A stretch of 64,000 nucleotides of DNA. Origin: Cymbidium sinense. Lineage: Eukaryota; Streptophyta; Magnoliopsida; Asparagales; Orchidaceae. The stretch spans positions 84,168,945-84,232,944 of the forward strand of contig CM038216.1 of the NCBI GenBank assembly GCA_021442155.1, given 5' to 3'. Shown here piece after piece: positions 4,239 to 60,953 of this stretch. Numbering within the stretch: position 1 is the first letter of the stretch; every line of letters starts with the position of its first letter. Below the pieces are notes generated by a model. It was given only the letters and a program-made list of their open reading frames with translations. It was not told the DNA's origin and ran no database searches. A program made the translations under genes and the position numbers.

Positions 4239-4609
4239 CTTTTAATAGAGAGCAAATTCAGATTCAACATTTCTTATTTTTGAATTCATCTACCATGTAA
4301 CACACTAAGTTTTCTTAAACACAAGTGACGACATAGATAAAAAATGAGTACGCATAGAGAAAAATAAAACCCTAGATAACTATAAATCTCTACTATTAAG
4401 AAACTGTTCCATAAGTAGTAGATTGGATCATTTTTTCGCTTTCTCAGTCCAATCAAAACCACCTCAGACTCTCGAGTAGCGTGATCCACCATCATATCCC
4501 CATTCTCTCCCTCCGCCATCACCATGGTTATAACCTCCGTCGCTCCTCCCTCCTCCACCGCCCAACCACCACCTCCATATCCTCACCTCAAGATCCCCAC
4601 CACCACTAT
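4239..4609 (-). pseudogene. GRP retrocopy 1, 3' part, cut by a LINE
   Basis: This is the 3' end of a GRP7/GRP8-type glycine-rich RNA-binding protein mRNA, antisense to +. The family are small plant RNA-binding proteins with an N-terminal RRM and a C-terminal glycine-rich region. Reading leftward from 4,609 there is a Gly/Tyr/Ser-rich stretch, then DGGSRYSR, then an in-frame stop where other copies read GRGG. The 3' UTR follows and ends in a short poly-A (T run near 4,239). The RRM and the NGQNLDGRNIT segment are missing because a LINE starts after 4,609. A 5-base remnant of the distal end (ccatt) remains at 5,886-5,890 next to cttaggg. Confidence 0.85.
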
Positions 4610-5885
4610 TTTTTAAATCAAAAGTGGGAGAATTTTATTGCCAAAAAGAAAGGGATACAAGGTCCTTAAAGGGGATAAATCTCTAAACCATCGCTCAAAG
4701 AGCTACAATTAGCCTAAAGAGATAAATTCCTTTTATTACAAGAAAACCAAAGCAAAAGAAAGAAATAACAATAACTAAGAAAGAAACATCACTGAATTCC
4801 AAGAAGGGCTGCCAAAGCCATCTATTTCTCGAAATCTTCTAACATATGCAAAAGCCACCTACAGCCCCAAAACCTACCACAAACCTGCAAAGAACTTAAG
4901 ATAGAGATAAGCATCTATAAATAAGGACAAGCTAAGTACATAAAAGGAACAAAATGGTAAAAATCTTAGATAAGGCTCAGGCTCAGTCACATTCATCTCA
5001 AGGAGCAACAGGATATATGAGCATCCAAACTTCAGAAGAAGGGTTACAATCACATATGGTGCTACCAGCCAAAAGGATAATAAGGGAAACATCCCAACCA
5101 TCATAGCCAACTTACCTCGATTAAACCAAATAGCTAACAGTCAAGAGCTAGCCAAGTTCCAGTATCTATCATCATGATTAAAAAGGCAACTAACCAGTAA
5201 AACATCTAGCCATGCCAGAGCAAAGGAACTAACCAAAAAAAGCAGCAGCCAAGAAATAACCACCATCAAAGCAACGCAAAATAAACAAAGACCAAAGGTA
5301 AAAAACAAAAAATTCATGCAAATCCACCAACCAACAATATAGCTGCAACTAGGCATCAAGGCCACCCAGCTAAACATAGAAACAGGAATCTACATATATA
5401 GCAATAGAGCCAAGAACAACCAAAACCATAAACAAGTTCATCCCACAAAAGAAAGAAATGGCAAGCTAATGGGCCATCCAGACAACAGGAAAACACCAAC
5501 AAAAAAACTTCAAGAAAACCACTAGAAAAGGGGAACGAAAACTAGATAGCATGTAATAGCTCTAGAGAGAGTAACTCAGCCCAGGAAGGAACAAAGCCCA
5601 CAATGCTCAAACAATAATCATGACACCAGATAGCCAAAATCATAAGCAAAAGGCTGGAAAATATGACAGCCATCAAGCAACCACCAGCCAAAAAACCCTC
5701 ACAGGGAAAAAAAGAGTTCAGGGAAAAAGGCAAACAAGTAAGCTCCAAAGCCTGCCAATCACTAGGCCATCCTAAAACCAACACAACAGGAGATTAACAA
5801 GAGCAGAGAGCCACCAAAAATAGAGGGCAACCGAAGCTTAGTAGTACCAACCAGAAATAATCTAGACCTTAATCAAAAGGAGATA
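4610..5885 (-). mobile_element. 5'-truncated LINE 3' end inserted in GRP copy 1
   Basis: Read on the minus strand, this segment ends with a GGCAATAAAATTC stretch (AATAAA polyadenylation signal near 4,633) followed by a short A tail at 4,610-4,615. That is the usual layout of a plant L1-like LINE 3' end. Upstream, the minus-strand frames are hydrophobic, Leu/Trp/Ser-rich and repeatedly stopped, so they are probably 3' untranslated sequence. Their composition resembles the 3' half of the LINE at 54.6 kb. No endonuclease or reverse transcriptase motif is present, so this is a severely 5'-truncated insertion of about 1.28 kb. Base composition (A/C-rich on +, no TTTAGG words) differs sharply from the flanks. 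It interrupts the GRP module and about 95 bases of target are missing. Confidence 0.7.
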
Positions 5886-7232
5886 CCATTCTTAGGGTGT
5901 GTTTAGGTTTATTATGTTTTAGGGTTTAAGTTTATTTTTTTAATTTATTTAGTTACTTTATGCTTAGGTTTAGGTTTATTTATTTGGGGTTTAGGGTTTA
6001 GGGTTTATGATTTAAGTTTTGGGCTTAAAGTTTAGCATTTTAAGGTTTATATGATTTTAGGGTTTAGGTTTGGGTTTGGTTTAGGGTTTAGGTTTAGGGT
6101 TGTAGGTTCAGGGTTTAGGCCTGGGCTTAGTGTTTAGGTTTGTAGGATTTAGACATGGTTTTTTTATAAGAAAATAAGCAAACCGAGTTTTAGGTTTATT
6201 TAGTTTATTTTATTTTATTTATTTTATTTAAGTAATTTTATTTATTTAGTTTTTTTTTATTTTAATTTTAGTTTTATATTAGTTTATTTTTTAGGTTTAG
6301 TTTAGCTCAGGTTAATTTTTTATAGAGTTATTTTTTGTTTAGGTTTAATTTTTTTATTTCAGTTTAGGTAGGTTTTATTTTATTTATTTTAGGTTTATTT
6401 AATTAGTTTTAGGTTTTTTTTTATTTTAGTTTATTTTTAGGTTTAGGTTTAGGTTTAGGTTTATTTTCATTTTTTTATTTAGGTTTAGTTTTATTTTATT
6501 TTAGGTAGGTTTAGGTTTTATTTTATTTTTTAGTTTATATTTTTAGGTTTATTTTTAGGTTTTATTTTTGTTTAGGTTTAAGTTTATTTTAGTTTTATTT
6601 TATTTTATTTAGTTTAGGTTTGGTTTATTTATTTTAGTTTAGCATATTTAGTTTAGTTTAGTTTATTTTATATTTATTTTATTTTTATTTTTGGTTTAGG
6701 TTTTTTAGTTTAGGGTTTAGGTTTTATTTTAAGGTTTATTTTTCAGGTTTAGGTTTTTAATTTATTTTATTTTAAGTTTATTTTATTTTTATCTTATGTT
6801 TATTTTTTTATTTATTTAGGTTTTTTATTCTAAGGTTTATTTTATTTTTTTAGTTTAGTTTAGGTTTTTATTTATTTTATTTTAGTTTATTATCATTAGT
6901 TTATTTTATTTTATTTTTAAGTTTAGGTTTTAGGTTTTAGTTTAAGTTTTTATTTTATTTTATTTTTTAATTTAATTTAGGTTTAGGTTTTTTATTTATA
7001 TTACTTATAGGTTTTATTTAGTTTAGGTTTAGGTTTTTAAGTTTTTAGGGTTTAAGGTTTAAGGTTTAGGGTTTAGGGTTTAGAGTTTAGGGTTTAAGAT
7101 TGTTGGTTTTAGAGTTTAGTGTTTAGGGTTAAGGTTTTAGTGTTTAGGGTTTAGGGTTTAGGGGTTTTAGGGTTTAGCATTTACATTTTAGGTTTAGGGT
7201 TCAGGTTCTAGTTAAGGGTTTTGGGTTTTTGG
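5886..7232 (+). repeat. Telomere-like matrix
   Basis: It begins with the standard right flank of GRP units (cattcttaggg, then TTTAGGTTTATTATG-like words and AATTTATTTAGTTACTTTA), which shows that the LINE at 4.6-5.9 kb sits inside a GRP unit. TTTAGGG-rich DNA runs to about 6,160. A box AAAATAAGCAAACC-like sequence lies near 6,172-6,185, followed by TTTATTTTAGG AT-rich repeat to about 7,040. TTTAGGG-rich DNA then leads into copy 2. No genes seen. Confidence 0.85.
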
Positions 7233-7650
7233 TTTTTTTTAATAGAGAACAAATTCATATTCAACATTTCTTCTTTTCGATTTCATCAACCAAGTAACAT
7301 ACCAAGTTTCTAAGACACAAGACAAAAAAAATAAAAAAAATGGCACTCATAGAGAAAATCAAAACATTAGATAACTAGAACCGCCTCATCTCAGTAAAGA
7401 CACAGTTCTTCAATTTCTCCGTTACCATCAAAACCACCGACTCAGTGGCGGATACACCATCATATCCTCGATTTCTCCCTCCGCCATCACCATGGCTGTA
7501 ACCTTCATCACTCCTCCTGCCTCCATAACCACCACTACTCTGACTGCCACCTCCATATCCACCAGCACCTCCATATCCCCCACCACCACAGCCAGATATA
7601 GACTGAACCTGGTTGATGGTGATGTTCTCGTCCTCAAGGTTCTACCCATT
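7233..7650 (-). pseudogene. GRP retrocopy 2
   Basis: This is an antisense copy of the 3' part of a GRP7/8-like mRNA. From the truncation point at 7,650 the minus strand reads NG, a stop, NLEDENITINQVQS, then a glycine-rich stretch with GGYGG repeats and a GYSHGDGGG segment. The frame stays open until a shift near GYDG replaces the family C terminus (GGSDGNWRN) with unrelated residues. A 3' UTR ending at an 8-T run (7,233-7,240) follows. The RRM is absent, so no functional RNA-binding protein is encoded. Both edges abut telomere-like repeat. Confidence 0.88.
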
Positions 7651-10056: not shown

Positions 10057-10521
10057 TTTTTAATAGAGAACAAATTTATATTCAACATTTCTTCTTTGTG
10101 ATTTCGTCAAACGTTTTCTAAGATATAAGCAATGATGTAGATAAACAGTGAGCACGCATAGAGGAAATCAAAAACCCTATATAACTAGAACCATCTCTAC
10201 TGTAAAGACATAGCTCAAAAGCGTAACTGATTGAGTTCTTCAATTTCTCCAATTCCCATCAGAACCACCCCAGCCTCTCAATTAGTGGGATCGACCATCA
10301 TATCCCCAATCTCTCCCTCTGCCACCACCACAGCTATAACCTCCATCGCTCCTCCTGCCACCTTAACCACTGCTACTCTGACCACCACCTCCATATCCAC
10401 CAACACATCCAGATCCCCCACCACCACTGTAATAACTGCCGCCTCCACCTTCGCCTCTACTGTCGGATCTAGACTGAGCCTAGTTGAGGGTGATGTTCTT
10501 GCCACCAAGTTTCTGCCCATT
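10057..10521 (-). pseudogene. GRP retrocopy 3, nearly full C-terminal frame
   Basis: This copy keeps most of the glycine-rich C-terminal region of a GRP7/8-type protein in one minus-strand frame. It begins MNGQKLGGKNITLN, runs through a GGGGSGCVGGYGGGG stretch, and ends GGSDGNWRN plus the native-type TGA stop, as in plant GRPs. Three in-frame stops interrupt it: after ITLN, in the middle of the Gly tract, and near the RYSR position. The 3' UTR ends at a T run at 10,057-10,061. The 5' truncation falls just before NGQ of the RRM end; the ATG seen here differs by one base from the AAG of most copies and need not be the original Met. The forward-strand open frame over the same bases is a shadow. 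Confidence 0.9.
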
Positions 10522-12799
10522 CATAGGGTTTAGGTTTTAGTTTAGCTTTATTAGTTTTTGAGGCTTCAGATTATTTTTTTAATTTATTTAGTTACTTTAG
10601 GTTAGGTTTATGGTTTAGGGTTTTGGATTTAGGGTTTATGGTTTAGGGTTGAGGGTTTAGGGTTTTAAAAACAAAAAAAATTAAGGAAACTGGGAGGTTT
10701 ATGTTTATTTAGTTTATTTTTTATTTTTTTATTTTTAGTAATGTTTAATTTTGATTTTATTTAAGTTTTTATTTTTAAGTTTATTTTTTTAGTTTAGTTT
10801 AGGTTTTTATTTATTTTAATTTAGTTTAGTTTTGATTTTTTATTTTATTTTATTTTTAGTTTTAGGTTTAGGTTTAGGTTATAGTTTAAGTTTTTATTTT
10901 ATTTTATTTTATTTAGGTTTAGGTTTTATTTATTTATTTTATGTTTAGGTTTTATTTAGTTTAGGTTTAAGTTTCTAGGTTCCAAGGTTTTGGGTTTAGT
11001 GTTTATTGGAGTTTTGGTTTGGTGGTAGGGTTGGGTAGAGTATAGGTTTAGTGTAGGGTTTTAGGGTTTAGGATTTAATGTTAGGTTAGGGTAGATTTAG
11101 GTTAATTTATGGTTTAGAGTTTAGGTTAGAATTATTATTATTTTATTTAGGGTTTAGGGATTAAGGTGGGTTTAGTTAGGGTTTTAGCATTATTATTTAG
11201 GATTTAGGGTTAGTTTTAGTGTGTTAGTTTAGGGAGGTTTAGGTTTTTAAGTTTTTTTAAAAAAAAATGGTAGTCTTGGTTTATTTAGTTTATTTGAATT
11301 TTAATTTTATTTAGGTTTATTTTTTATTTATTTAGTTTAGTTTTTATTTTAGTTTATTTTTTAGGTTTAGGTTTATGTTTATGATTATTTTTTAGTTTTT
11401 ATTATCATTTATTTTTTTTTAGGTTTAGGTTTTATTTTTATTTTTATGATTATGTTTAGATTTTATTTCATTTTTTTATGTTTAGGTTTTAGGTTTTTAT
11501 TTTAGGTTTATTTTTTAGTGTTATTTTTTAGTTTAGTTTTACTTTCATTTTATTTTTTTAAGTTTAGGTTTTTTTTTATTTTTAGGTTTATGTTTAGTTT
11601 TTATTTCATTTTTTTATGTTTAGGTTTTAGGTTTTTATTTTAGGTTTATTTTTTGGTGTTATTATTTAGCTTAGGTTTAGGTTTATTTTCAGTTTATTTT
11701 ATTTTATTTAGTTTAGGTAGGTTTTGGCTATTTTAGGTTTAGGTTTTATTTAATTTATTTTAGTTTATTTTAGTTTAGGTTTAAGTTTATTTTCTTTTAT
11801 TTATTTTAGGTTTAGGATTTTATTTAATTTTCTTATTTTATTTTAGTTTTATTTTATTCTTATTTCAGGTTTAATTTTTATTTTATTAGGTTTCTTAATT
11901 TTAGGTTTATTTTGTTTTTTTAGCATAGTTTAGGTTTTTAATTATTTTATTTTAGTATAGTTTTTATTTTTTTATATATATTTTTTTTTTTAGGTTTAGG
12001 TTTAGGTTTAGGTTTTAGTTTACATTTTATTTTATTTTATTATTTTATTTTATTTTAGAATATTTATTTTGTTTTTAGTTATATTTAATTTAGGTTTTGT
12101 TTTTTAAGTTTCTCGGGTTTAGGCTTTAGTGTTGTAGGTTTTAGTGTTTAGGGTTTAATGTTTTAAGGTTTAAGGTTTAGGGTTTAGGGTTTAGGGTTTT
12201 ACTGTTTAGAGTTTAGTGTTTAGTGTTGTAGGTTTAGGGCTAGTTTTAGGGTTTAGGGTTAAGTCTTTTTTATTATTTTTATTTTTTTAAAATTAAGTAA
12301 ACTAGTAGGTTTAGGTTTATTTAGTTTATTTTTTATTTATTTTACTTTATTTTATTTTTTATTATAATTAGTTTTATTTTTATTTCCATTTTTAATTAGT
12401 TTTTATTTATTTTTATTTTATTTTAGTTTAGGTTTATTTTATTTTTATTTTAGGTTTAATTCTTATTTTATTTAGGTTTATTATTTTTAGTTTAGTTTAG
12501 GTTTTTATTTATTTTATTTTAGTTATTTATTATTTTTCTTAATTTTAGGATTATGTTTAGGTTTAGGTTTTTAGCTTTTTAGGGTTTAGGGTTTACGATT
12601 TAGGGTTTAGGGTTTGGGGTTTAAGGTTTAGGGTTTAGGGTTTACAGATTAGTGTTTTTGTTTTAGCATTTAAGGTTTAGGGTTTAGTGTTTTAGGGTTT
12701 AGGGATTAGGTTTAGGGTTTAGGGTTTTTATGGTTTAGGGTTTAGGGTTTCGGTTTTAAGTTTATAGTTCAAATTTTTGTTTAGGGTTTAGGATTTATG
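10522..12799 (+). repeat. Telomere-like matrix
   Basis: The standard GRP right flank runs to about 10,660, and a variant box (AAATTAAGGAAACTGG) lies at about 10,676-10,692. AT-rich TTTATTTTAGG repeat alternates with TTTAGGG-like blocks at 10,980-11,250, 12,120-12,270 and 12,580-12,800. Further boxes lie near 11,262 (degenerate) and 12,291 (AAATTAAGTAAACTAG). A 135-bp stretch is locally repeated: the words from 'aggttta.gtttttatttcatttttttatg' near 11,455 recur near 11,590. No genes seen. Confidence 0.83.
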
Positions 12800-13253
12800 T
12801 TTTTTTTAGGAGAGAACAAATTTAGATTAAACATTTTTTATTTTTCATTTGATCAACCAAGTAACACACCAAGTTTTCTAGGACATTAGTGACGACATAG
12901 ATCAAAAATTGGCATGCATAAAGCAAATCAAAAACCCTAGATAACTAAAACCGTCTCTACTGTAGAAAGACAGTTCCATAAGCGGCAGATTGACGTTCTT
13001 CAATTTCTCCAGTTCCCATCAAAACACCTCGACCTCTCTAGCAGCGGTATCCACCATCATATCCTCGATCTCTCCCTCCACCAATACCACGGATGTAACC
13101 TCCATCGCTCTTCTCGCCTCCATAATGACAAATACTCTGACCACCACTTCCATGTCCACCAATACCTTCAGACCCACCACTAGCACTACGATAATCAGAT
13201 CTAGACTGAACCAGTTGACGGTGATGTTCCTACCATCAATGTTCTATACATTC
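12800..13253 (-). pseudogene. GRP retrocopy 4
   Basis: This antisense GRP 3' fragment is recognised by alignment with the other copies: the 3' UTR words, the Gly-rich tract and the distal NITVN-like segment (damaged here) occur in the same order. Several small deletions shift the frame in the Gly tract. The forward Ser/Thr-rich open frame of about 100 codons over the same bases is a complement of GGN-type codons and not a gene. The module starts at a T run (12,800-12,807) and ends at 'ttcttatgg'. Confidence 0.85.
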
Positions 13254-15389: not shown

Positions 15390-15850
15390 TTTTTTTTAAT
15401 AATGAACAAATTCATATTCAACATTTCTTCTTTTTGATTTCATCAACCAAGTAACACACCAAGTTTTTTAAGACACAAGTGAAGACATAAATAAAAAATG
15501 AGCACTCATAGAGAAAATCAAAAACCCTAAATAACTAGACTCATCTCTACTATAAAGACACAATTCCATAAGAAATAGATTGAATCGATCATTCTTCAAT
15601 TTCTCCCATCACAACCACCCCAACCTCTCGAGTAGCGGGATCCACCATCACATCCCCAATCTCTCTCTCCATCACCACCACGGCTGTAACCTTCGTCGCT
15701 CCTCCCGCTTCCATAACCACCATTGCTCTGACCACCACCTCCATATCGCCCACCACTACTACGATAATGGCCCCATCCGCCTTTGCCTCCATTACCAGAT
15801 CTAGATTGAGCTTGGTTGATGATGTTCCTGCCATCAAGGTTCTGCTAATT
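15390..15850 (-). pseudogene. GRP retrocopy 5, uninterrupted C-terminal frame
   Basis: This minus-strand copy has an open frame of 83 codons from 15,844 to the stop at 15,596-15,598. It begins QNLDGRNIINQAQSRSG, passes through glycine-rich repeats with GGYGSGRSDEGYSRGG and GGSRYSRGWGG segments, and ends DGRN-stop. One codon of NITVN has been lost in frame. An in-frame TAG lies just upstream (at the GGG of NGQ), and there is no start codon and no RRM, so I call it a pseudogene despite the open frame. It has the same 3' UTR as the others, ending in a T run at 15,390-15,397. The forward His-rich frame is its shadow. Confidence 0.9.
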
Positions 15851-18103: not shown

Positions 18104-18508
18104 TTTTTTAACCAGAGAACAAATTTTTCAACATTTCTTCAGATTTCAACCAAGTAACACACCAAGTTTTCTAAGGCAATGTGATATAAAATAAAAAACC
18201 CTAGATTAGAATCGCCTCTACTATAGACATAGTTCCATAAGCAGAAAAGATCGCTCTTCGCTTTTCCAGCTCCCATCGTAACCACCCCGCTTCTAGTACT
18301 GGGGATCCACCTCATAAAGATCTCTCGCCCCACCACCGCCTAACCTCTGTTCCTCCTACCACCATAACCTCCACTGCTGCGACCATGACCTCCATATCCA
18401 CTAGCACCTCTAGATACCCCACTACCACTGTGATAACTGCCATCTCCACCTTCTCCTCCATCGTGATCTAGATCAATGGGACGCTTGTATGCCGCCATCA
18501 AGGTTCTT
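18104..18508 (-). pseudogene. GRP retrocopy 6, eroded
   Basis: This shorter copy has many small deletions in the 3' UTR and Gly tract. The distal end is altered: where other copies read ...GRNITV, this one has a GGCATACAAGCGTCCC variant on the minus strand. The order of words, the orientation and the left T run (near 18,104-18,109) match the other copies. The reading frame is destroyed. Confidence 0.8.
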
Positions 18509-19430: not shown

Positions 19431-19868
19431 TTTTTTTAAAAGAGAATAAATTGATTCAACATTTTTCATTTCTTTCATCAACCAAATAACACTCTAAGTT
19501 TTTAAGATGAAAGCATGATATAGAAAGTGGGCACGATAGAGAAATTAAACACCCTAGATAACTTGAATCATCTCAATAAAGGCATAGTTCTATAAGAAGC
19601 AGATCGGATCGATCTTTCAATTTTTTGAGATAACCACCCTGCCTCTCAAAATGAATCCACCATCATATCTCCTATCTCTCCTCTACCACAAAACCATTAT
19701 AACCTCCACCCTCCTCCTCCATAACAACCATATTACTCCCACACCACCTCTATATCCACCAAGCATTCTCTAAGTCCCCACCACCACGATAACGCCTCCT
19801 CCTTCAGCCAGATCTAGTCTGAGCCTGGTTGACGGTGATGTTCCTGCCATCAAGGTTCTGCCCATTCT
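19431..19868 (-). pseudogene. GRP retrocopy 7
   Basis: An antisense GRP 3' fragment. The distal 70 bases are well preserved (GQNLDGRNITVNQAQ on the minus strand near 19,800-19,868), while the Gly tract has several small deletions that break the frame. It starts at a 7-T run (19,431-19,437) and ends at 'cccattcttaggg', the consensus truncation junction. Confidence 0.87.
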
Positions 19869-38480: not shown

Positions 38481-38525
38481 GATTAGGTAATTCTTTAGAT
38501 CTACTCCAAAATGACATCTTTATTC

Positions 38526-46463: not shown

Positions 46464-46940
46464 TTTTTTTAATAGAAAAAAAACTTCATATTCAACATTT
46501 TTTTCTTTTCGATTTCATCAACCAAGTAACACATCAAGTTTTCTAGGACGCAAGCGACGACACAGATAAAAGATGAGCACACATTGAGGAAATCAAAAAC
46601 CCTAGATAATTAGAACCACTCTCTCTAAAGACATAGTTCCATGTAGATCGATCGGCCTTTCTTCTTTCTAGTTCCCATCAGAAGAACCTCGGCCTTTCGA
46701 GTAGCAGGATCCACCATCATATCCTCGATCTCTCCCTCCGCCACCACCACGGCTATAACCTCCGTCATTCTTCTTGCCTCCATAATGACCATTACTCCAA
46801 CCACCACCTCCATGTCCACCCGGGTTTCCACATCCCCCACGACCACTACGATAATCGCCGCCTCCAACCTTGCCTACATCGCTAGAACTAGACTGAGCCT
46901 GGTTAATGGTGATGTTCCTACCATGAAAGTTTGGCCCGTT
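46464..46940 (-). pseudogene. GRP retrocopy 12, uninterrupted C-terminal frame
   Basis: The minus strand is open for 91 codons from 46,940 to a TAG at 46,668-46,670. It begins NGPNFHGRNITINQAQSSS, continues through a Gly-rich tract with GGDYRSGRGG and GGHGGGGWSNGHYGG segments, then GGYSRGGGGGRDRGYDGG, and ends SSDGN-stop; the family's final WRN is lost because the Trp codon became TAG. No RRM and no start codon remain, so it is classed as a pseudogene. The absence of earlier stops or frameshifts makes it one of the two best-preserved copies. The 3' UTR ends in a T run at 46,464-46,470. Confidence 0.9.
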
Positions 46941-47365
46941 CTTAGGGTTTTAGTTTAGGTATAGGTTTATTAGGTTTTAGGGTTTAGGTTTATTTTATAA
47001 TTTATTTAGTTACTTTAGGTTTAGGTTGATTTTATAATTATTTAGTTACTTTTGGTATAGAGTTTTGGGTTTTGGGTTTAGGGAATAGAGTTTAGGGTTA
47101 CGATTTAGGGTTTAGGGTTTTAGGGTTTAGGGTTTAGGGTTTAGGGTTTAGGATTTTGGGTTTATGGTTTAGGGTTTTAGGGTTTAGGGTTTAGGGTTTA
47201 GGGTTTATGGTTGTAGGTTTAGGGTTTAGGGTTAGTTTTAAGGATTACAGTTTAAGGTTAGCATTTTTTATTTTTTTTTATTTTTATTTATTTTATTTTT
47301 TAGGGTTTAGGTTTAGGATTTAGGCTAGGTTAAGGTTGTTTTAGTTTAGGGTTTAGGGTTTTTGG
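46941..47365 (+). repeat. Short telomere-like spacer
   Basis: About 425 bp of GRP right flank and TTTAGGG variants (near-perfect run at about 47,125-47,155) separates copies 12 and 13, with no AAATTAAG box and no AT-rich core. Copies 12 and 13 are therefore the closest pair, about 0.9 kb apart start to start. Confidence 0.86.
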
Positions 47366-47842
47366 TTTTTTTTAACATAGAACAAATTTATATTCAACAT
47401 TTCTTCTTTTGGATTTCATCAACCAAGTAACACACCAAGTTTTCTAAGACACAAGCGACGACTTCGATAAAAAATGAGCACACATAGAGCAAATCAAAAG
47501 CCCTAGATAAATAGAATCATCTCAAATGTAAAGACACAATTCCATAAGCAACAGATCGGATCGGCCCTTCTTTAGTTTCTCCAGTTCCCATCAAAACCAC
47601 CCCAGCCTCTCGAGTAGCGGGATCCATCATTATATCCCTGATCTCTCCCTCCGCCACCACCATGGTTGTAACCTCCATCGCTCCTCCCGCCTCCATAACC
47701 ACTATTATTCTGACCACCACCTCCATCCACCAGCACCTCCAGATCCCCACCACCACTATGATAACTGCCACCGCCTCCACCACTAGATATAGACTGAGCT
47801 TAGTTGATGGTGATTTTCCTGCCGTCAAGGTTCTACCCATTC
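47366..47842 (-). pseudogene. GRP retrocopy 13
   Basis: A well-preserved antisense GRP 3' fragment. On the minus strand: NG, stop, NLDGRKITIN, stop, AQSISS, then an open Gly-rich frame with GGGRSDGGYNHGGGGGRDQGY and SRYSRGWGGFDGNWRN, ending in TAA at the family's normal C terminus. Two stops lie in the distal segment. It starts at a T run (47,366-47,373) and ends at 'acccattcttaggg'. It is followed 165 bp later by a P0 retrocopy in the same orientation. Confidence 0.9.
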
Positions 47843-48007
47843 TTAGGGTTTAGGTTTAGGTTTAGGTTTATTATGTTTTATGGTTTAGGTTTATTGTTTA
47901 ATTTATTTAGTTACTTTAGGTTTAGATTTAGTGTTTGGGGTTTGGGGTTTAGGGTTTAGGGTTCAGAGTTAGGGTTTAAGGTTTAAGGTTTATAGTTAGG
48001 GTTTAGG

Positions 48008-48860
48008 TTTTTTTAACTCAAATGATTTCATAACAAATAAGAAATTACCAAATCTAACAAGACATTATCTTCTAACAACTAATAAAATAGGATATAATAA
48101 AATGCAATTCAAAAATTCACAAAACAATATTTTACAAAATGATTTAACTCTGAGGGACAATAAAATTTAATTATCTAGAAGTCCAACAAAGCTTAGTCAA
48201 ACAAGTTGAAACCCATATCATCATCGATTCTCAAGCACTTCCTTCATCTCTTCCACGCAAAGCAATGGGAAAGGTAAGCATCAGGAAGTACCACATCTAT
48301 TTTAGTAGGATCATTCAAACACTTTAACCTTCTTGGCCCAAGTATGTGTAATCAATCATGGTGGCAAGGACATTCTTGTAAGTGTTGATAAACATGTGTA
48401 GCGCTACAACAAGGGTGTGATAATAGAGGGCCAACAAGAGAGAAGTGATCATTGAGAGGCCTGCCGAAAACTTCTCGATGAGATCATCTTCAGTGAGGTC
48501 AAGCAACTCAGGACTGAATACCGAACCTTCATCATACATAGACGGGACGATAAGGCCATTAGAGAATGGCCTAATCCCTAGCTTTGTGAGGAGAGCAACC
48601 TCTGAGGATTCCAACTTATCACCTATTTTAACCAGCTCAACCGGGGTGATAGTTTCAATAGTACCCTTATTTATCTTAGTTGGGATGTTGAGAAGCTGAA
48701 AGAATGAAGTCTGTGAAGAATCAAAACCAGTGTTCCCTGGAGGAACCATTTTATCAATAGGTGCAACAAAACCACCACAGACAGGAGCACCAATATTGTA
48801 TTTCCCAACTTCTTCACTGACTTCTTTAAGATCACCTATTGTAAAAATTAGCTTAACCGG
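48008..48860 (-). pseudogene. RPP0: 60S ribosomal stalk protein P0 retrocopy 1, 5'-truncated
   Basis: P0 anchors the acidic stalk of the large ribosomal subunit in the cytosol. The minus strand is open for 178 codons from the truncation at 48,860 to a stop at 48,324. It reads [19 protein letters not shown], then [53 protein letters not shown] and [12 protein letters not shown], the middle and C-terminal domain of eukaryotic P0. After that stop a frameshift hides the acidic tail, but its end DDDMGFNLFD-stop is visible at 48,193-48,225. A 3' UTR ends in a T run (48,008-48,014). Roughly the first third of the protein, including the rRNA-binding region, is missing. No intron-like insertion interrupts the frame, consistent with an mRNA origin. 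Confidence 0.93.
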
Positions 48861-50150
48861 GGTTTAGTGCTTAGGATTTAGGGTTTAGTAGTTTAGGGGT
48901 TTAGGGTTTATACTTTTAGGGTTTAGGGTTGAGGGTTAGGGTTTAGGGTTTAGGGTTTAAGGTTTAGGGTTTTGTTTTTAATATTTAGAGTTTAGGGTTT
49001 AAGGTTTAGGATTTAGGGTTTAGAGTTTTTTTTAGTGTTTAATTGTAGGTTTAGTGTTTAGATTTTAGGTTTGGGAGGATTAGTATTATTTTTTAGTGTT
49101 TAGGGTTTAGGGTTTAAGACTTAGGGTTTGTGGTTTTATATATCTTTAAATTAAGTAAACCACTGGCTTAGGTTTATTTTAGTTTATTTTATTTATTTTA
49201 GTTTATTTTATTTTTTTTTTAATTTTTTACTTTATTTTTATATTAGTTTAGTTAATTTATTTTAGTTTTATTTATTTTAGTTTAGGTTTTTTATTTTAGT
49301 TTATTTTTGGTTCAGTGTTTAGGTTTATTTTTAGTTGAGTTTTATTTTTATTTTACTTTTTAGGTTTAGGTTTATTTTATTTTTTTATTTAGGTTTAGGT
49401 TTTATTTTATTTTTAGGTTTAGGTTTTAAGTTTTATTTTAGGTTTATGTTAGGTTTTATTTTTAGTTTAGGTTTAGGTTTATTTTTAGTTTATTTTATTT
49501 TATTTAGTTTAGGTTTAGGTTTAGATTTAGGTTTGGGTTTTATTTATTTTAGTTTTGGTTTAGGTTTATTTTATTTTATTTATTGTATTTTTATTTTAGT
49601 TTTAGGTTATTTTTCTTAGTTTATAGTTTAGATTTTATTTTTAATTTATTTTAGGTTATTTTTTAGGTTCATTTAGGTTTAGGTTTTATTTAGTTTTATT
49701 TTATTTTATTTTAGGTTTATTTTATTTTATTTAACATGTAGTTTTTTATTTTATTTAGGTTTTTTATTTTATTTAGGTTTTAGTTTAGTTTAGGTTTTAT
49801 TTGTTTTATTTTAGTTTATTTTATTTTATTTTATTTTAGGTTTAGGTTTATGTTTTAGTTTAGGTTTTATTTTATTTTAGGTTTAGTTTTTATTTATTTT
49901 ATTTTTTGGTTTTATTTAGTTTAGGTTTAGGTTTTTTTTTATGGTTTAGGGTTTAGGGATTAGAGTTTTAGGTTTAGTTTAGGGTTTAGGTTTAAGGTTA
50001 GTACGATTTAGGGTTAGTTTTAGTGTTCATGATTTAGGTTATGGATTTTTTATTTTTTTACTAATTTTAATTTTTGGGATTTAGTGTTTAGGGTCTAGGT
50101 TTTAGGTTCAGGGTTCAAGTTTTAGTTTAGGGTTTAGGCTTTTCGGTTTC
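48861..50150 (+). repeat. Telomere-like matrix
   Basis: The P0 truncation point reads aaccggggtttag, passing directly into TTTAGGG variants (to 49,135). A box AAATTAAGTAAACCACTGG lies near 49,147 and an AT-rich block runs to 49,930 with the conserved TTTTATTTAGG order. TTTAGGG variants lead to copy 14. A 94-codon forward frame at 49,335-49,619 is F/L/G low-complexity from repeat DNA and is not a gene. Confidence 0.85.
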
Positions 50151-50585
50151 TTTTTAAATAGAGAATAGATTTAGATTTGACATTTCTTCTTTTCGAGTTC
50201 ATCAACTAAGTAACACACCAAGTTTTCTACGACACAAGTGATGACATAGATAAAAAAATGAGCATGAGAGCAAATCAAAACCTTAGATAATTAGAACCAT
50301 CTTTACTAAAGACATAGTTCCATAAGCGAGATCGGATCGCATTCTTCTTCTTTCTCCACCCAGAACTACCTCGCCTCTCTCAAGTAGCGATCCACCATCA
50401 TATCCTCTCCTCCGCCACCACCGCCATAACTCTCTTGTCCCACCTCCATAACCACCACACCAACCACCTCCATATCCACCAACACCTCCAGATCCCCACC
50501 ACCACTATGATAACTACTTCGCCTCCCACCTCCAGATCTAGACCGAGGCTGACTGGTGATATTCTCTCTGTGGTTTTGCCCATTC
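50151..50585 (-). pseudogene. GRP retrocopy 14
   Basis: An antisense GRP 3' fragment. The UTR is good, the Gly tract carries several deletions, and the distal NITVN segment is mostly deleted (reads as 'gatattctctctgtgg' on +). It lacks a neighbouring P0 copy, unlike copies 13 and 15, so it marks a different unit type in the local alternation. Confidence 0.85.
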
Positions 50586-51975: not shown

Positions 51976-52400
51976 TTTTTTTTTTAGAGAACAAATCAGA
52001 TTCAACATTTCTTCTTTTGATTTGATCAACCAAGTAACCAAGTTTTCTAAGACACAAGCAATGACATAGATAAAAATGAGCATGCATAGATAACTAGACC
52101 GTCTCTATTATAAAGACAAGTTCCCATAAGCAAATGACTGATCTCTTTCGCTTTCTCAGCTTCCCATCAAAACCACCTCCCTCTCGAGCAGGATCCACCA
52201 TCATATTCTCGATATCCATTCGCCACCACCATGGATGTAACCTCCGCCCCTCCTCTGCCTCCATAACCACCAGCCCACCACCACCTCCATATCACCAAGA
52301 CCTCAGATCCAACCACCACCTCCATAATCCGCCCTTCGCTTCCACCACCGATCTAGATCGAGGTTGATGATGTTCCTACCATCAAGGTTCTACCCCATTC
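51976..52400 (-). pseudogene. GRP retrocopy 15
   Basis: An antisense GRP 3' fragment starting at a T run (51,976-51,985) and ending at 'cccattcttaggg'. Many small deletions in the Gly tract and UTR shorten it to about 425 bp. It is followed 160 bp later by P0 copy 2, the same arrangement as copy 13 with P0 copy 1. Confidence 0.85.
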
Positions 52401-52560
52401 TTAGGGTTTAGGTTTAGGTTTAGGTTTATTATGTTTTAGGGTTTAGGTTTATTTTTCTAATTGATTTACTTACTTTAGGTTTAAGTTTAGGGTTTGGGGT
52501 TTAGGGTTTAGGGTTTTTGGTTAGATTTTAAGGTTTAGGGTTTAAGGTTTTATTTTTTAT

Positions 52561-53416
52561 TTTTTTTAAACTCAAATGATTCCATAATAAACAAGAAATT
52601 ACCAAATCAAACAAGACATTATCCTCTAACAATTAATAAAATAGAATAAAATAAAATGCAATTCAAAAAATTCACAAAAATATTATTTCACAAAATGATT
52701 TAACTCTAGAGATAATAAAATTTTATTTTATAGAAGGCCAACAAAGCTTAGTCGAATAAGATCAAACCCATATCATCATCAGATTCCTCAATAAGCTCTT
52801 CGACTATAGCAACAAGAGCAAGAGAAAGAAGAGGAGTAGTAAGCATCAAGCAGAGCTACCAAAAATTTTTAGGATCCTTCAAATACTCCTTAACCTTTAT
52901 CTCTTGCGGGTATGTGTAATCAGTGGCAATTTTGATGGAGAGGACATTCTTGTAAGCGTTGATGAACATGTGGGGCTTTGTAGCAAGGTGGGATAAGAGA
53001 GGGATTGTGAGAGAGAAGTGATCATTGAAAGGCTTGCCAAAAACTTCTCGAGATCATCTTCGTGAGGTCAACTGACCAACATCAACCATCATCATACAGA
53101 TGACGACAAGGCCATAAGAGAATGGCCTAATCCCTAGCTTAGCAAGGAGAGCATCCTCTAAGGTTCCCACCTTATCTCCTTTTTTAATCAACTCAATTGG
53201 GGTGATAATTTCAACAGTACCCTTGTTAATCTTAATTGAGATGTTTAGAAACTAGAAGAAAGAAGTCTATGAAGGATCCAAACTAGTGTTTCTTGGAGGA
53301 ACCACAACATCAATAGGTACAACAAGACCAACATGGGCAGGAGCACCAACTTTGTATTTCACAACATCTTTGCAGACTTCTTTAAGATCACCTTTCATAA
53401 AAATCAGCCCAGCCGG
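52561..53416 (-). pseudogene. RPP0: 60S ribosomal stalk protein P0 retrocopy 2, 5'-truncated
   Basis: This has the same span as copy 1. From the truncation at 53,416 the minus strand reads [32 protein letters not shown], then a region matching NTS-FF and [20 protein letters not shown], with frameshifts and deletions in the LTEDD segment. The acidic C-terminal end is preserved as DDDMGLILFD-stop (52,748-52,780). The 3' UTR ends in a T run (52,561-52,567). Both copies are truncated at the same residue and run into the same ccggggttta junction, so they came from one founding insertion duplicated with its GRP neighbour. Confidence 0.9.
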
Positions 53417-54565
53417 GGTTTAAGGTTTATGATTTAGGGTTTTAGGGTTTATGCTTTTAGGATTTAGGGTTTAGGTTAGGGTTTAGGGTTTAGGGCTTAG
53501 GGTTTAGGATTTAGAGTTCATGGTTTAAGGTTTAGGGTTGTAGGTTTAGTGTTGTAGGATAAGGGTTTAGGGTTTATGTTTTCTTTTTTTTTTTAAATTA
53601 CGTAAACTAGTTGGTTTAGGTTTATTTAGTTTATTTTTTATTTATGAAGTTTATAATATTTTTTAATTTTATTTAGTTTTATTTTTTATTTTTATTTTTA
53701 TTTAGTTTAGTTTATTTATTTTTAGTTTAGGGTTTTTATTTTAGTTTTTTTTAGGTTTAGGTTTATTTTTTTAGTTTAGTTTTATTTTTTATTTATTTTT
53801 GGGTTTAGGTTTTATTTTTAATTTTAGGTTTAAGTTTAGGTTTTATTTTATTTTTAGGTTTAGGTTTTAGGTTTATAATTAGGTTTATTTTTAGATTTTG
53901 TTTTTAGTTTAAGTTTAGGTTTATTTTTAGTTTTTATTTTTTTTTTTTAGGTTTTGGTTTAGTTTATTTTAGGTTTAGCATTTTATTTATTTTAGTTTAG
54001 GTTTATGTTTATTTTATTTTGTTTATTTTATTTTATTTTAGGTTTAATTTTTTTTTTAGGGTTTAGGTTTCATTTTTTATTTATTTTTAGGTTTATTTTT
54101 TAGATTTAGGTTTTTATTTAGTTTTGATTTTATTTTAATTTTATTTTTCATTTAATTTCTATTTTATTTGGGTATTTTATTCTTAGCTTAATTTTATTTT
54201 TTTTAATTTAGTTTAGGCTTTTATTTATTTATTTTAAGTTTATTTTTATTTTTTGTTTAATTTTTTTTAGTTATAGGTTTAGGTTTTAGTTTAGGTTTTC
54301 AATTAATTTTTATTTTATTTTATTTAAGTTTAGGTTTTCTTATTTATTTTATTTTTAGGTTTTATTTAGTTTATGTTTAGGTTTTTAGTTTTTAAGGTTT
54401 AGGGTTTAGGGTTTAGGGTTTTAGGGTTTATGATTTTAGGGTTTAAGGTTTAGGGATTTAGGGTTTAGGGTTTAGGGTTTAGTGTTTAGGCTTTAGGGTT
54501 TAGGTTTTTACATTTTAGGGTTTAGGGTTTAGGGTTTAAGGTTTAGGGTTTTAGGTTTAGGATTT
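53417..54565 (+). repeat. Telomere-like matrix
   Basis: TTTAGGG variants, a box AAATTACGTAAACTAG near 53,595, an AT-rich block to 54,380 and TTTAGGG variants (54,395-54,560) run straight into the T run of the LINE at 54.57 kb. No genes seen. Confidence 0.86.
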
Positions 54566-55348
54566 TTTTTTTTAACTAAAAGGAAATAATTGCTCAAAAA
54601 AATAGGTACAAGAAGACCATATTAGAGACTAAACTCAAAAAAAAAACTAGTGCTCAAATGAGCTACAGCAGAATCCTAAAGAGTTTAGTCTCTAAACTAA
54701 TACATCAAAGAGCAATAAAAAAAAAAGCAAAGACAAAACTAAAAAAGCCAAGCAAAAGAGAACAAAGGGGAAGAATCCATGGAGCTAAAAAGAACCTCCA
54801 AAGAGATGAAGATCCATAAGAAAAGGAAACTTGCAACCCGCAAATCAAGACAACTCTAGCCATCTAAAAAAAAAGAGACCGTAAGACTCTAGCTCCAAGA
54901 AGAAGAAGAGAATCAAAAGAGAACCTCAACCTACAAGAAATCTCAGACTAAGATCAAAATACATAAAGAGAAAAACAATCAGGCGATTTGAGGAAAGAAG
55001 GATAATCACAATAATGAGGGGCATCAAATCCTAAGTGTATCCAACTTCAAAGAAGGGTTACAAATAGGAAAAGTCACCAGCAAGAAAAATATCAAGGAAA
55101 AAATCCATCATATCATCATAGCCATCCCAACCAAAGAAAAATACAGACCTATCATAATATCTACCCAACCAAAGAAAAAGTGAAGCTAAAGAAATAGAAA
55201 GAGAGAGGAGAGCAACATATAAACCTAACATAAGGCAATCCCAACAAAACCAAATATGAACACCTCTTAAAAAAGAGGGAGAAAAGAAGCTCACAAAAGA
55301 AAAGAAAAGATCCTCAAAGACAAAGCAAATAGAGCCCAAACAACACCA

Positions 55349-55420
55349 ATCCAAAGCCACCAAGGCACCATGCCAACAGAGCCCACAACAACACTAATCC
55401 AAAGCCACCAAGGCACCAAC
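55349..55420 (-). repeat. 48-bp spaced direct repeat within the LINE
   Basis: The word aatccaaagccaccaagg followed by caccA occurs at about 55,349 and again at about 55,396, separated by an intervening block of gcccacaacaacact-type sequence. On the minus strand this gives a repeated WWLWI-V segment. It is a small tandem duplication inside the 3' half of the LINE. Confidence 0.75.
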
Positions 55421-56759
55421 CAAAGGAAAGGAAACAACCACACAATAGAGCACCCAAGAAAAATAGCCCATGAAAGAGCAATAGAACCAAACCAACCAAC
55501 ATAAAAAAAGAAGAAGGCCAACAAAAGCTAAATTAAATAGCTAGAGAAATAGCCAACCAATGGACAAACCACATGCTAAGGACAAAAATTCCAACCTACC
55601 ACCAACAAAGAGAGCAAAAGCACCAACCAAAGAAAGGCAAGCCAACAGGAACAAAGACAACAGCACAAAACCAACCACTCAAAGGGCTCCAAAAAAAAAC
55701 CCAGCAAACAAGAAGCCAGAAACACCAAGCTAGAAAGAGGAAAATTAGCCAAGAAGCCAATACTCCAGCTAGCAAGAAAACACACAACAAAAGCTCAACC
55801 AATAGGAAAAAACCAACCAAAAGCAAAACCTCTCAAGGAGAGAGATTTCCAAGAAGCTTTGGAACAAGTAACCCTCGATGTGAGGAGGAACATAAATCTT
55901 TTTTTTTTCTTTTCTTCTTGTAAACAATTTTATAACCATGCCCTTTCTCCAAAAACTCTCCATCCAAAATGAATCAAGTATAATTATAAAGACAGGGATC
56001 AAAAGCTATTAGCTATCAATTTCAAAGAAGAGCATTCAATCATCCATAGCATTGACAAAGGAAAATTAGAGTATGTTCAAAATCGAGTGTAAAAAAGGAG
56101 AAATAACTTTATTAAGAAGATAATTATCAATATTTTCACCTTCCAACAAAATCTAAAGAGAATCCTCGATGTCTTCATTCATAAAGAAGGAAGAGAATCT
56201 AGATTTTAGTACAATCTTCATGTAAGGGATTAAAATAAGATTCAAATCCTTAGAAACAAATAGCATATTACCAAAATTTTGAACATAATTACCAACCATA
56301 AAAAACCATCATTTTGAACCAAATAGAACTATTCACAATGAGAGAATTATCATGTATCTAAATATTATTTTTAAAAGAAGGATCCAATATATAACAAGGA
56401 CTAGAAGTTAAAATATCAAAATAAGAACATTCTTTTCACCACCATTCTCAATAGAAGAAGGCAAAGAAATAGTCTCTTTTCCATAATCCAAAGTAGACAT
56501 AGGAGAAAGAGAAACAACATCCAATTGATTGGAAGAAATGGTGTTAGCATCAACAATATTCAAACCATCATCATGACTTATGAACAAACATCCAAACCAT
56601 TATCATTAACCACTAGCCTCTAAAGTCTTCCCTTTAGCGTAATCAAAAGAAACACATTAGATGATTATTAGTTTATTCATTAATAGAAAATCATTTAGAA
56701 CTTGAAAGATCATTTTTTTACCTTTTATATTTTCTTCCTAAGAGGTATGAGCAATAAAG

Positions 56760-57534
56760 CATAAATTTCATGTCCATGAATCTTACAATGATTACAAAAA
56801 TTGCAAAATTTCTCAAAATTAACTTTCTAAAAATAATCACATTTTTTTCTAACCCAACCAAATTTCTTTTAGGTATTTTTTAGTAATATCAATCTCTACA
56901 AGAATTCTAGCATACATAGAAGAAGAAGTAATTATTGCTTGATCAACTTGCAAAGGTTGACCAAAAATCAACCCAATATCATAAAGAATCTGATGATTAA
57001 ATAGATGAACCCACAAGTTAGGTATGGAAATCCAAATGGGAACAATAGGAGACTCTTCATTAACATCAAACATAGGCGTCCACTTCAGAATACACATTTG
57101 ACAAATAAAAACATAGTAAGAATGCCTAGAAAAAATGTTTCATAATCAAGGTCATTAGAAAGTTTAATGAAACATGCCTTGGAACAATCAACCCAATAGA
57201 AAAAGAACCAGAAAAATTTAAGCTATGAATACAAGAATGATTATCTTTCTTCTTTGGCCATTTAAATGAAAACTTTCCAATCAAAGAAAAAGCAAAAGGC
57301 TCAGCTAATCTTTCAATATCCTCATCTGAAATCATAATTGTCGGCGTACCTTTAAAAGTCGTATGAAGCAAATTCAAAGGAGGCGCGGTGGAGGAATTCT
57401 TACCAGCTAAACACTCTTTGAAAAATTTAGTAACGAGGTAATTTAGAGGTAGGATTACCCAAAAAATTTGATGCCTTAGCGGGATCCATCAGCACATGGG
57501 ATTTACGCCATGGATTTGAAGAAGCTGATGCCAT
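56760..57534 (-). pseudogene. LINE ORF1 with DUF4283 and zinc knuckle, broken
   Basis: ORF1 proteins of plant L1 LINEs bind element RNA. The likely start is the ATG at 57,532-57,534 (MASASSNPWRKSHVLMDPAK). After a stop and frameshift, 57,126-57,377 reads FKGTPTIMISDEDIERLAEPFAF then LIGKFSFKWPKK, the start of DUF4283. 56,849-57,097 continues with ILKWTPMFDVNEESPIVPIW, ISIPNLWVHLF, IGLIFGQPLQVD and ARILVEIDI...IWLG. Past another stop, VNFEKFCNFCNHCKIHGHE (about 56,770-56,835) is a CCHC zinc knuckle whose last Cys is missing. It has at least three disruptions and is not functional. Confidence 0.88.
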
Positions 57535-57656
57535 GAGCCATGGCGTCGTGACAAGAATAGGTTGAGATCGGCCCAAGTCGACAATCTATAGAGAATCTAA
57601 GAGAGAAAGCACTCAGAAACTCACCAAGAATGTGAGGGATCCCAAAATCACCCAAG

Positions 57657-59139
57657 TAATAGGTTTAGTTTTAGGGTTTAGGTTTTAGGTTTAGTGTTTA
57701 TTAGTTATTATTAGGTCTTATTAGTTTTAAGTTATTATTAGTTTATTATTAGTTTTATGTTTAGTTTAGTTAGTTTAGTTTTAGTTGGGTTATTAGTTTA
57801 GTTTTATAGTTTTCATTTTAGTTATTATTATTTTAGGTTAGTTTAGAGGGGTTTAGGTTTAGTTTATTAGTTTATTTAGTTTGTTTATTGGGGTTTAGTT
57901 TTAGTTTATTTATTAGTTATTATTAATTAGTTTAGTTATTATTAGTTAGTTAGTTATTTATTTAGTTTAGTTTATTATTATTATATGGTTTTATTATTAT
58001 TTAGGTTTTAATTATTTTAGTTAGTGGTTTAATTTTATTAGTTTAGTTTTGTTAGTTTAATAATTTTATTTAATTAGTTTCTTAATTTTATTAATTTATT
58101 TATGGGTTTAGGTTTATTAGTTTATTATTATTATTTTTTAGTTTAGTTTATGGTTTAGTTTTTTATTAGTTATTATTAGTTATTTATTGTTTATTATTAT
58201 TATTAGTTTAGTTAGTTGGTTTATTATTAGTTCCATTTTAGTTTTGTTTTTTATCTATGGTTTTTAATTATTATTAGTTTATGTTTATTATTATTAGTTT
58301 TATTATTATTATATAGTTTATTTATTTAGTTAGGGTTTAGGTTTTAGTTATTTAGTTTTTTATTAGTTAGTATTTATTTATTAGTTTTAGTTAGTTTAGT
58401 TAGTTATTATTACAATTATTAGTTTTATTAGTTTAATTATTATTAGTTAGTTTTATTATTATTATTATTAGTTTTCTTATTAGGTTTATTAGTTTAGTTA
58501 TTTAGTTTAGTTATTTAGTTAATTTTGTTTTATTTTATTATTAGTTTATTATTAATTAGTTATTATTAATTTTGAGTTAGGTGTTTTATTATTAGTTATT
58601 AGTTAGTTTATTAGGTTGTTATTATGTTTTATTTATTAGTTAGTTTTTATGGTTTATTAGTTTAGGTTAGGGTTTAGTTTTAGTTAGTTATTTAATTATT
58701 TATTATTAGTTATTATATTTAATTATTATTAGTTATTATTATTAGTTTATTAGTTTAGTTTTAGTGTTTATTATTTATTAGATTTTAGGTTTATTTATTA
58801 ATTAGTTTAGTTTTTTTAGTTAGTTTGTTAGTTGTTAAGTTTATTAGTTATCTATTACTAGTTTTATTTAGTTTATTATTAGTTTTAGTTTTTTATTAGT
58901 TATTATTAGATTTTTAGTTTATTATTTATTAGTTTATTAGGTTCTATTAGCTCGTTATTTGATAGTTTTAGTTTTTATTTTATTTATTAGTTTTTTTTTT
59001 TTTAATTATTTAGTTATTATTATTAGTTGAATTAGTTTACTTATTCATTATTTTACTTTAGTTTAGTTTGTTATTATTAGTTTTATTATTATTAGTTTAA
59101 TTAATTTAGGTTTAGGGGTTTAATGTTTAGTTTATTTAG

Positions 59140-59170
<31 letters not shown>

Positions 59171-60290
59171 GTTTTAGTTAATATTATTATTAGTTTATTA
59201 GTTATAGTTAGTTTAGTTACTATTAGTTTTATTAGTTAATTTTTATTTAGTTTATTATTATTTATTAGTTTAGTTAGTTTAATGTTTAGTTTACTTTAGT
59301 TTTAGTTATTTATTATTTAGTTTATTATTATTATTAGTTTAGTTTAGTTAGTTTCTATGTTATTAATTTTTATTATTATTTAGTGTCATTTTAATTATTA
59401 TTAATTTTTAGTTTATTTTATTTTTTTTATTATTAGTTATTATTTTATCAGTTTAGTCTTTTTTATTAGTTTTTTTATTATTAGTTAGTTAGTTTATTAG
59501 GTTTAGTTTATTTATTTAGGTTTTATTTATTATTTAGTTTATTATTAGTTTATTTTATTATTATTATTATTTGTTTAGTTATTTGTTTTATTTAGTTTAA
59601 TTTATTATTAGTTTTTTAGTTTAGTGTTATTTGTTATTAGTTATTAAGTTTTAGTTTATTAGTTTTATTTAATTTTTTTATTACTTTTAGTTATTATTTA
59701 GTTAGTTTATTACTTGGTTTAATTATTTTTAATAGTTTATTAGTTTAGTTTAGTTATTAGTTTTAGTTATTAGTTAGTTATTATTATTAGTTATTTATTA
59801 GTTTTAGTTTTTTATTATTAGTTTTAGTTTAGTTAGTTTAGTTATTGGGTTTAGTTTTATTATTAGTTAGTTTTTTATTAGGTTATTTATGTTTAAGCTT
59901 TACATTTATTAGTTAGTTGTTATTATTAGTTAGTTATTTATTATGGTTTAGTTTAGTTAGTTTATTAGTTTAGTTTTAGTTATTAGTTTAGGTTTAATTG
60001 AGTTTTTATTAGTTTTATTAGTTTAGTTTATTTTTAGTTAGTTTATTAGTGGGGTTTTTTTGTATATGTTTAATTTAGTTATTAGTTTGTTTAATAGTTT
60101 ATTTAGTTTTTGTTATTATTAGTTTATTATTTTTTAGTTATTATTTAGTTAGTTTAGTTTAGTTAATTTTATTATTTTTTATTATAGTTTGTTATTAATT
60201 TATTAGTTTTAGTTTATTATTTATTAGTTTTTGTTTATTATTTATTTGAATTTTTAGTTAGTTTAGTTTAGTGTTTTTAATTTCTTATTG
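57657..60290 (+). repeat. TTATTAG/TTTAGTTA satellite
   Basis: About 2.6 kb of words such as TTATTATTAGTTTA, TAGTTAGTTTAG and TTATTTAGTT, again nearly without C on + but poor in GGG. A perfect (ATT)n run lies at 59,140-59,170. The texture differs clearly from the TTTATTTTAGG blocks elsewhere. It starts at the LINE 5' edge and ends where TTTAGGG variants resume at 60,290. No genes seen. Confidence 0.85.
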
Positions 60291-60490
60291 GGGTTTAGGG
60301 TTTTTAGGGTTTAGGGTTGGGGTTTTATAGGGTTTAGGGTTTAGGGTTTAGAGTTTAGGGTTAGTTTTAGGGTTTTGCATTTAGGTTAGGGTTATATATA
60401 TATATATATATTTATATTTAATTGTTAGGGTTTAGGGTTAAGGTTTTTGGTTTAAGGTTCAAGTTTTACTTTATGGTTTAGAGTTTTTAG
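60291..60490 (+). repeat. Telomere-like spacer with a (TA)n run
   Basis: TTTAGGG variants contain a TA dinucleotide run at about 60,393-60,410. The right end carries the conserved left flank of GRP units ('aggttcaagttttac'). Confidence 0.85.
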
Positions 60491-60953
60491 TTTTTTTTAA
60501 TAGAGAACAAATTCAAATTCAACATTTTATCTTTTTATTTCATTAACCAATTAACACACCAAGTTCTCAATGACACAAGTGACAACATAGATAAAAAATG
60601 TGTACACATAGAGCAAATAAAAAACCATAGATAACTAGAACCATCTCTATTATAAAGACATAGTTCCATAAGCAGCAGATCAGATAAGCCGTTCTTTAGT
60701 TTCTCCAATTCCCATTAGAACCACCCCGACCTCTCGAGTAGTGGGATCCACCATCATATCCCTTATCTCTCCTCCCACCATGTCAGAACCTTCGTGCTCC
60801 CCTAGCACCATAACCACCACTACCATCACCTCCATATCCACCGACCTTAAGATCCCCACCACTACGATAACCTCCTCTCGCTTCGCCTCCACTTGAGATC
60901 TAGATTGAGCCTGGTTGATGGTGATGTTCCTTTCGTCAAGGTTTTGCCCATTC
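60491..60953 (-). pseudogene. GRP retrocopy 16
   Basis: An antisense GRP 3' fragment. The distal end is clean: NGQNLDERNITINQAQSRS on the minus strand from 60,953. A frameshift follows and the Gly tract is read out of frame (a 70-codon Met/Val/Glu frame at 60,680-60,892 is this shifted reading). The 3' UTR ends at an 8-T run (60,491-60,498) and the truncation junction is 'gcccattcttaggg'. Confidence 0.88.

Follow-up and report, generated by a model that had tools for sequence, protein, structure and literature searches.

We analysed a 64,000-nucleotide stretch of the Cymbidium sinense genome (the window; positions 84,168,945 to 84,232,944 of contig CM038216.1, here C3), in which 3' fragments of two gene messages, GRP and P0 (uL10), lie together with pieces of long interspersed nuclear elements (LINEs) in a telomere-like satellite. 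It is likely, in our judgment, that RNA copies were pasted by L1-type LINE machinery into an internal telomere-like satellite and that the GRP unit was then amplified. Polyadenylated GRP and P0 mRNAs and LINE RNAs would have served this machinery as templates for reverse transcription, primed where the T-rich (G-) strand of an internal TTTAGGG-derived satellite, by then degenerate, was nicked; amplification of the GRP-bearing unit and its dispersal through the genome would probably have followed. That the copies derive from RNA, that a LINE enzyme made them and that nicking at TTTT/A-type sites gave them their polarity is inferred; amplification presumably proceeded by unequal exchange or through circular DNA. 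An initial annotation of this DNA had described the order G-strand tract, oligo-T, antisense cDNA, truncation point and telomere-like repeat for GRP, P0 and a LINE, and had read it as chromosome-end growth of the HeT-A type. The order was confirmed in the window, and the copies are indeed oligo(A)-ended and 5'-truncated and lie on the G-strand in one polarity. The end growth was not supported, and these copies probably do not reveal a new route of chromosome-end maintenance.

The window lies in the interior of C3 (223,176,143 bases) and not at a chromosome end. Its + strand holds TTTAGGG 466 times and CCCTAAA 3 times (exact heptamer count). A composition model delimited 19 satellite segments amounting to 34,988 bases, the first of which is a degenerate telomere-like G-strand tract at 1..4243 (+ strand), and the GRP, P0 and LINE pieces lie between the segments; two AT-rich stretches within a 17-kb Ty3-type element were left out of this segmentation. 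The array repeat is degenerate, which corrects the initial description. The consensus of the truncated-side (right) flank, built from 22 copies, contains 3 exact TTTAGGG heptamers in 101 bases, where at most 14 would fit, and that of the oligo-T-side (left) flank, from 33 copies, contains 4 of 10 in 70 bases, oligo-T counted in. Since a flank made by telomerase should be pure, the truncated-side flank is not a pure telomerase product, with decay before amplification being possible.

The GRP 3' mRNA-like fragment is present in 15 copies in the window, all of which read as oligo-T followed by antisense sequence on the G-strand (strand - in each case). Copies 2 (7241..7648), 3 (10062..10523), 4 (12808..13253), 5 (15398..15848), 6 (18110..18501), 7 (19438..19867), 9 (38781..39228), 10 (42306..42736), 11 (46471..46941), 12 (47374..47842), 13 (50156..50585), 14 (51986..52400) and 15 (60499..60953) are GRP fragments, and the copies were aligned. 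Copy 1 (4244..4609) has its 5' side replaced by a LINE piece, and its truncation point is marked by only a few GRP bases to the right of the nested LINE (5885-5891); copy 8 is a stub (21649..21715) cut by the Ty3-type element. The 3' junction is shared by 15 of 15 copies, with oligo-T followed by AATAGAGAAC or a near variant. A common 5' truncation, CCCATTC or a near variant followed by TTAGGG, was found in 12 of the 14 copies uncut by the Ty3-type element; the two exceptions are copy 6, which is decayed and has lost its 5' junction, and copy 10, whose junction reads as a variant of the common one. In addition, most copies are flanked by a non-telomeric box, the SP box TAATTTATTTAGTTACTTTAGG. 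Of its 13 matches (at most 3/22 mismatches), 10 lie 49-75 bp past a GRP end, in a zone that makes up 5.2% of the satellite. The box of copy 1, for example, is found 50 bp past it (5941..5962, + strand), and a further match (44201) is preceded by an apparent decayed GRP end. Because independent reverse transcription would yield differing truncation points and flanks, the GRP copies of the window look like one insertion event that was amplified.

Similar GRP junctions were also found on C1 and C7. The tree of 33 GRP copies is star-like, with a median end branch of 0.17 and 2 well-supported inner branches of 30, which fits a burst from one ancestor and later decay. Copies from the window form no single group in this tree, and they are somewhat clustered (8 changes against a shuffled mean of 10.8; values as low in 33 of 500 shuffles). 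The GRP polarity is common to 39 of 39 matches, which come from the window and from 11 of 12 other loci, pieces of one copy being counted apart; the twelfth, L045, holds a stub only and gave no match. Telomere-like or GRP content decided which of these loci were kept or chosen, and they are a non-random set. In the source assembly (3.53 Gb, 3526 Mb; 2174 contigs), the GRP 3' junction preceded by TTTAGGG at a distance of no more than 30 bases was matched exactly 3272 times on the forward and 2388 times on the reverse strand (5660 with overlapping starts included), against 0 + 0 exact matches behind CCCTAAA. The junctions thus occur on both chromosome strands. The uniform polarity is expected from amplifying one insertion and is uninformative on independent events.

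Both P0 fragments lie inside GRP units. The two 3' mRNA-like copies (- strand, 78.7% identical to each other) each follow a GRP piece and are flanked by two boxes of the GRP unit, the SP box on one side and BOX2 on the other. Copy 1 (48015..48858) has the SP box at 47899..47920 on its left and BOX2 at 49148..49167 (5/20 mismatches) on its right, and copy 2 (52568..53414) has them at 52458..52479 and 53595..53614 (6/20 mismatches), all four boxes being on the + strand. BOX2 matches were accepted up to 6/20 mismatches, and BOX2 was missing before the next GRP in 2 of 10 GRP units examined. When P0 was removed in silico, the SP-BOX2 gaps became 405 and 290, compared with 98-400 in six units without P0. 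This normal spacing makes it most likely that the tract existed on both sides before P0 arrived and that the insertion of P0 was into an internal array already in place. The order GRP-P0-GRP recurs in locus L048 on C1.

The P0 copies also bear on the source of the fragments. With X at stops, copy 2 aligns in one collinear stretch to a P0 chain of solved structure (residues 90-319), and it matches the Pfam families RL10P_insert (54.6 bits) and Ribosomal_60s (29.8 bits). The GRP fragment, by contrast with P0, gave no match in Pfam, NCBIfam or solved-structure searches, and its name follows motifs (NGQNLDGRNIT, NQAQS and Gly-Tyr repeats) that we take to be those of a GRP. The GRP fragments might be DNA-level captures, gene pieces picked up by a transposon or by recombination, and not derived from RNA. 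The GRP fragment could fit one exon, and common junctions link a Ty3-type element to the array. Nevertheless, the oligo-T exactly at the 3' end and the truncation on the 5' side in GRP and P0, as in LINE ends, together with the collinear P0 stretch, make such capture very improbable.

Given that the copies share one polarity, we considered what this polarity can say about mechanism. The initial annotation had argued that three unrelated RNAs in one orientation speak against random insertion. By our reading of the sequence, about four independent RNAs (GRP, P0 and two LINEs) share one orientation within the window, and four independent events agree by chance at 1/8, so the argument is weak. Furthermore, L1-type nick sites are almost confined to the T-rich strand: in the satellite, TTTTA was counted 1788 times on the + strand and 12 times on the - strand, and TTTTAA 153 and 10 times. 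TTTT/A-like sites are thus almost wholly on the priming strand, with individual nick sites being unreadable in the repeats. If the endonuclease nicks at TTTT/A, priming would occur near-exclusively on the T-rich strand and would place oligo-T and then antisense cDNA on the G-strand. Ordinary target-primed reverse transcription alone could be sufficient to force the polarity.

LINEs themselves entered the array. One 3' piece (4610..5884, sense strand -, oligo-T at its left end) is nested in GRP copy 1 and ends as a LINE-type 3' end with a 68% match to the LINE 3' end in locus L025. A second LINE (54574..57659, - strand) contains a DUF4283 piece (ORF1-like), and its oligo-T at the left end is joined to a G-strand tract. 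On C1, locus L050 has a LINE within the tract after a GRP end. On independent events, LINEs are more informative than GRP. Genome-wide, LINE 3' ends behind TTTAGGG gave 373 + 177 matches (550, overlapping starts included). Among the first 100 matches listed, 76 junctions were distinct by hand count, all on C1 between 0.3 and 208 Mb; the junctions listed differ in oligo-T length and include at least 2 LINE 3'-end types, many lie directly behind TTTAGGGTTTT (by eye), and some may be mutual copies.

These LINE junctions, with their number, their at least two 3'-end types and their frequent position behind TTTAGGGTTTT, are what would be expected if a plant LINE lineage were truly specific for telomere-like repeats, as TRAS/SART elements are, and carried host mRNAs in trans. 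We regard this as quite unlikely. The satellite makes up perhaps 7% of the genome, so many LINE matches in it are expected anyway, and an ordinary TTTT/A preference could suffice. The LINE alternative raised in the initial annotation is supported in one part, a LINE acting in trans within telomere-like repeats, and its other part, a TRAS/SART-like specificity, is possible but not needed. In a bolder and unlikely version, a plant LINE lineage would aim at TTTAGGG-derived DNA, prime on the G-strand and, in trans, have turned GRP and P0 messages into constituents of an extensive telomere-like satellite, as a TRAS/SART counterpart with mRNA capture.

The distribution of the array was then compared with that expected of chromosome ends. 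Extrapolation from 14 window matches to four TTTAGGG units gives a crude satellite total of about 265 Mb of the 3526 Mb, the source of the 7% above. We inspected 24 contig ends: both ends of each of C1-C8, with 10 kb read on the left and 2 kb on the right, and the left end of each of C9-C16, with 2 kb read. The satellite was found at 3 of them (C1 left, C7 right and C9 left), and the other 21 had no array in the 2-10 kb inspected. Its orientation is telomere-like at the C1 left and C7 right ends and opposite at the C9 left end, where TTTAGGG reads inward. On C1, the first 100 four-unit runs listed between 90 kb and 1.38 Mb also read TTTAGGG inward, opposite to a telomere; two GRP junctions within this stretch are on the other strand.

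These observations bear on a HeT-A-like capture, in which the 3' G-overhang of an open chromosome end would prime the reverse transcription of mRNAs, the end would be re-extended by telomerase and the arrays would later move inward. The polarity fits this account exactly, arrays do reach 3 of 24 contig ends, two of them in telomere orientation, and no empty site was seen for the founding GRP insertion. However, the window is interior (84.2 of 223 Mb), P0 and LINEs sit between parts of GRP units, the right-flank consensus keeps only 3 of 14 possible exact heptamers, and 21 of 24 contig ends lack the array over the length inspected. The C9 left end and the C1 runs point the wrong way for a telomere, although the two GRP junctions in the C1 stretch are on the other strand. 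Terminal growth followed by telomerase healing, as the initial annotation had proposed, is likewise at odds with the LINE in GRP copy 1, with locus L050, with the degenerate flank on the truncated side and with junctions on both chromosome strands. We consider HeT-A-like capture highly unlikely.

Several points nevertheless weigh against insertion by L1-type machinery followed by amplification. No empty site was seen for the founding GRP insertion itself, and the label "mRNA" for GRP would rest on the common oligo-T junction. Comparison of prefix matches with random tract pairs revealed no demonstrable target-site duplication for P0, LINE-A or the GRP consensus: the best prefix matches were 8 and 13 bases for P0 (reached by 40% and 9% of random tract pairs), 9 for LINE-A (28%) and 15 for the GRP consensus (5%). 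In the flank-likeness test, the truncated side scored 0.49, compared with 0.69 for the phase-matched control and 0.42 for random satellite; the oligo-T side scored 0.61 against 0.42 for random satellite, where the highest value among 500 controls was 0.49. At least 4 of the 20 anchors in the truncated-side set were not GRP ends, and the set was not used, the SP-box test taking its place. The LINE nested in GRP copy 1 is without a TTTT/A target by eye. Finally, the LINE junction tally covers the TTTAGGG side only, and the key control for a nick-strand bias is the count in the opposite polarity, that is, of LINE 3' ends behind CCCTAAA (pattern CCCTAAAN{0,30}TTTTTN{0,14}GGGGAATTTTATTGCC).

The Ty3-type element that cuts GRP copy 8 is a decayed element of about 17 kb (21716..38527, + strand) with a Ty3-type RNase H piece at 33071-33628. 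Its left junction with the array (at the GRP stub) and its right junction both recur on C1 as on C3 (the window; loci L017, L045 and L046), which indicates that large blocks were copied whole. Sequence related to this element was seen in 7 of 15 other 10-kb loci, which were contig starts or arbitrary places, five array loci being left out.

Other features of the arrays were observed. Locus L009 has a C-strand array at the C1 left end, and G-strand four-unit runs are listed from 90 kb on. The array of locus L048 (C1:7,750,000-7,757,999) flips between C-strand and G-strand within 8 kb. GC-rich CAGGGCC/CTCAGGG-like stretches (L009, 607-1206; L023, 1392-1794; L024, 2097-2216; L046, 6050-6323 and 6920-7267) look like a further telomere-like repeat variant. 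In the window, a 2.6-kb low-complexity block of the TTATTATTAG type lies to the right of the second LINE (57660..60280, + strand, limits by eye) and is unlike the TTTTATTTTAGG blocks elsewhere, and a run of 100 N at 61886-61985 is an assembly gap within the array.

The case illustrates how a high-copy telomere-like satellite can take up copies of gene messages; among the papers listed in literature searches, none was seen to describe such a combination. Arrays of this kind can have a strict polarity that does not prove growth at the end. The strand-asymmetric array offers a natural test of which strand plant LINEs nick, with hundreds of junctions that can be counted.

The window was also compared with known systems. 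In the HeT-A, TART and TAHRE arrays of Drosophila, the oligo(A) end of the cDNA is joined to the priming strand, and all elements run in one direction. The window shares the single polarity and the oligo(A) end at the priming G-strand; this was found for GRP, the LINEs having been tallied in this polarity only. The Drosophila elements are end elements that are independent of an endonuclease, according to the part of PMC2881922 at hand. The window, unlike these arrays, is interior (84.17-84.23 Mb of a 223-Mb contig), has degenerate TTTAGGG-like flanks and contains insertions inside units of the same repeat. Addition was not one-sided for P0, which lies between the SP box and BOX2 in 2 of 2 cases, or for the LINE in GRP copy 1, the founding GRP insertion being outside this test.

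The TRAS and SART elements of the silkworm are LINEs inside telomeric repeats, a position that the LINEs of the window resemble, and their defining trait is a sequence-specific endonuclease. L1-mediated processed pseudogenes derive from highly expressed mRNAs as cDNA copies that are truncated on the 5' side and end in oligo(A). The copies in the window carry both hallmarks, the oligo(A) 3' end and the 5' truncation; what sets them apart is the apparent amplification of two such copies within a satellite unit.

With telomere-derived tandem repeats at many sites away from chromosome ends, the array also belongs with interstitial telomeric-like satellites. Plant interstitial telomeric-like repeats are non-terminal TTTAGGG-derived arrays, like that of the window, for which satellite-like amplification, for example through circular DNA, has been suggested (PMC8621592). 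That review, in the portion at hand, treats them cytogenetically, and the unit in the window differs in holding retrocopies. A precedent for insertion by L1-type machinery is provided by the CUS-TR24 satellite of Cuscuta europaea, the arrays of which are broken up by L1-CS LINEs in a preferred orientation, at sites in the repeat like the mammalian L1 site TTTTAA, and were reshaped afterwards by segmental duplication and inversion (PMC8091179, as far as the part at hand goes). Both are plant satellites that LINEs enter in a preferred orientation. CUS-TR24 is not described as telomere-derived in that part of the report, which mentions no host mRNA copies; in the window, by contrast, the whole T-rich strand offers sites, and copies of gene messages are part of the unit.

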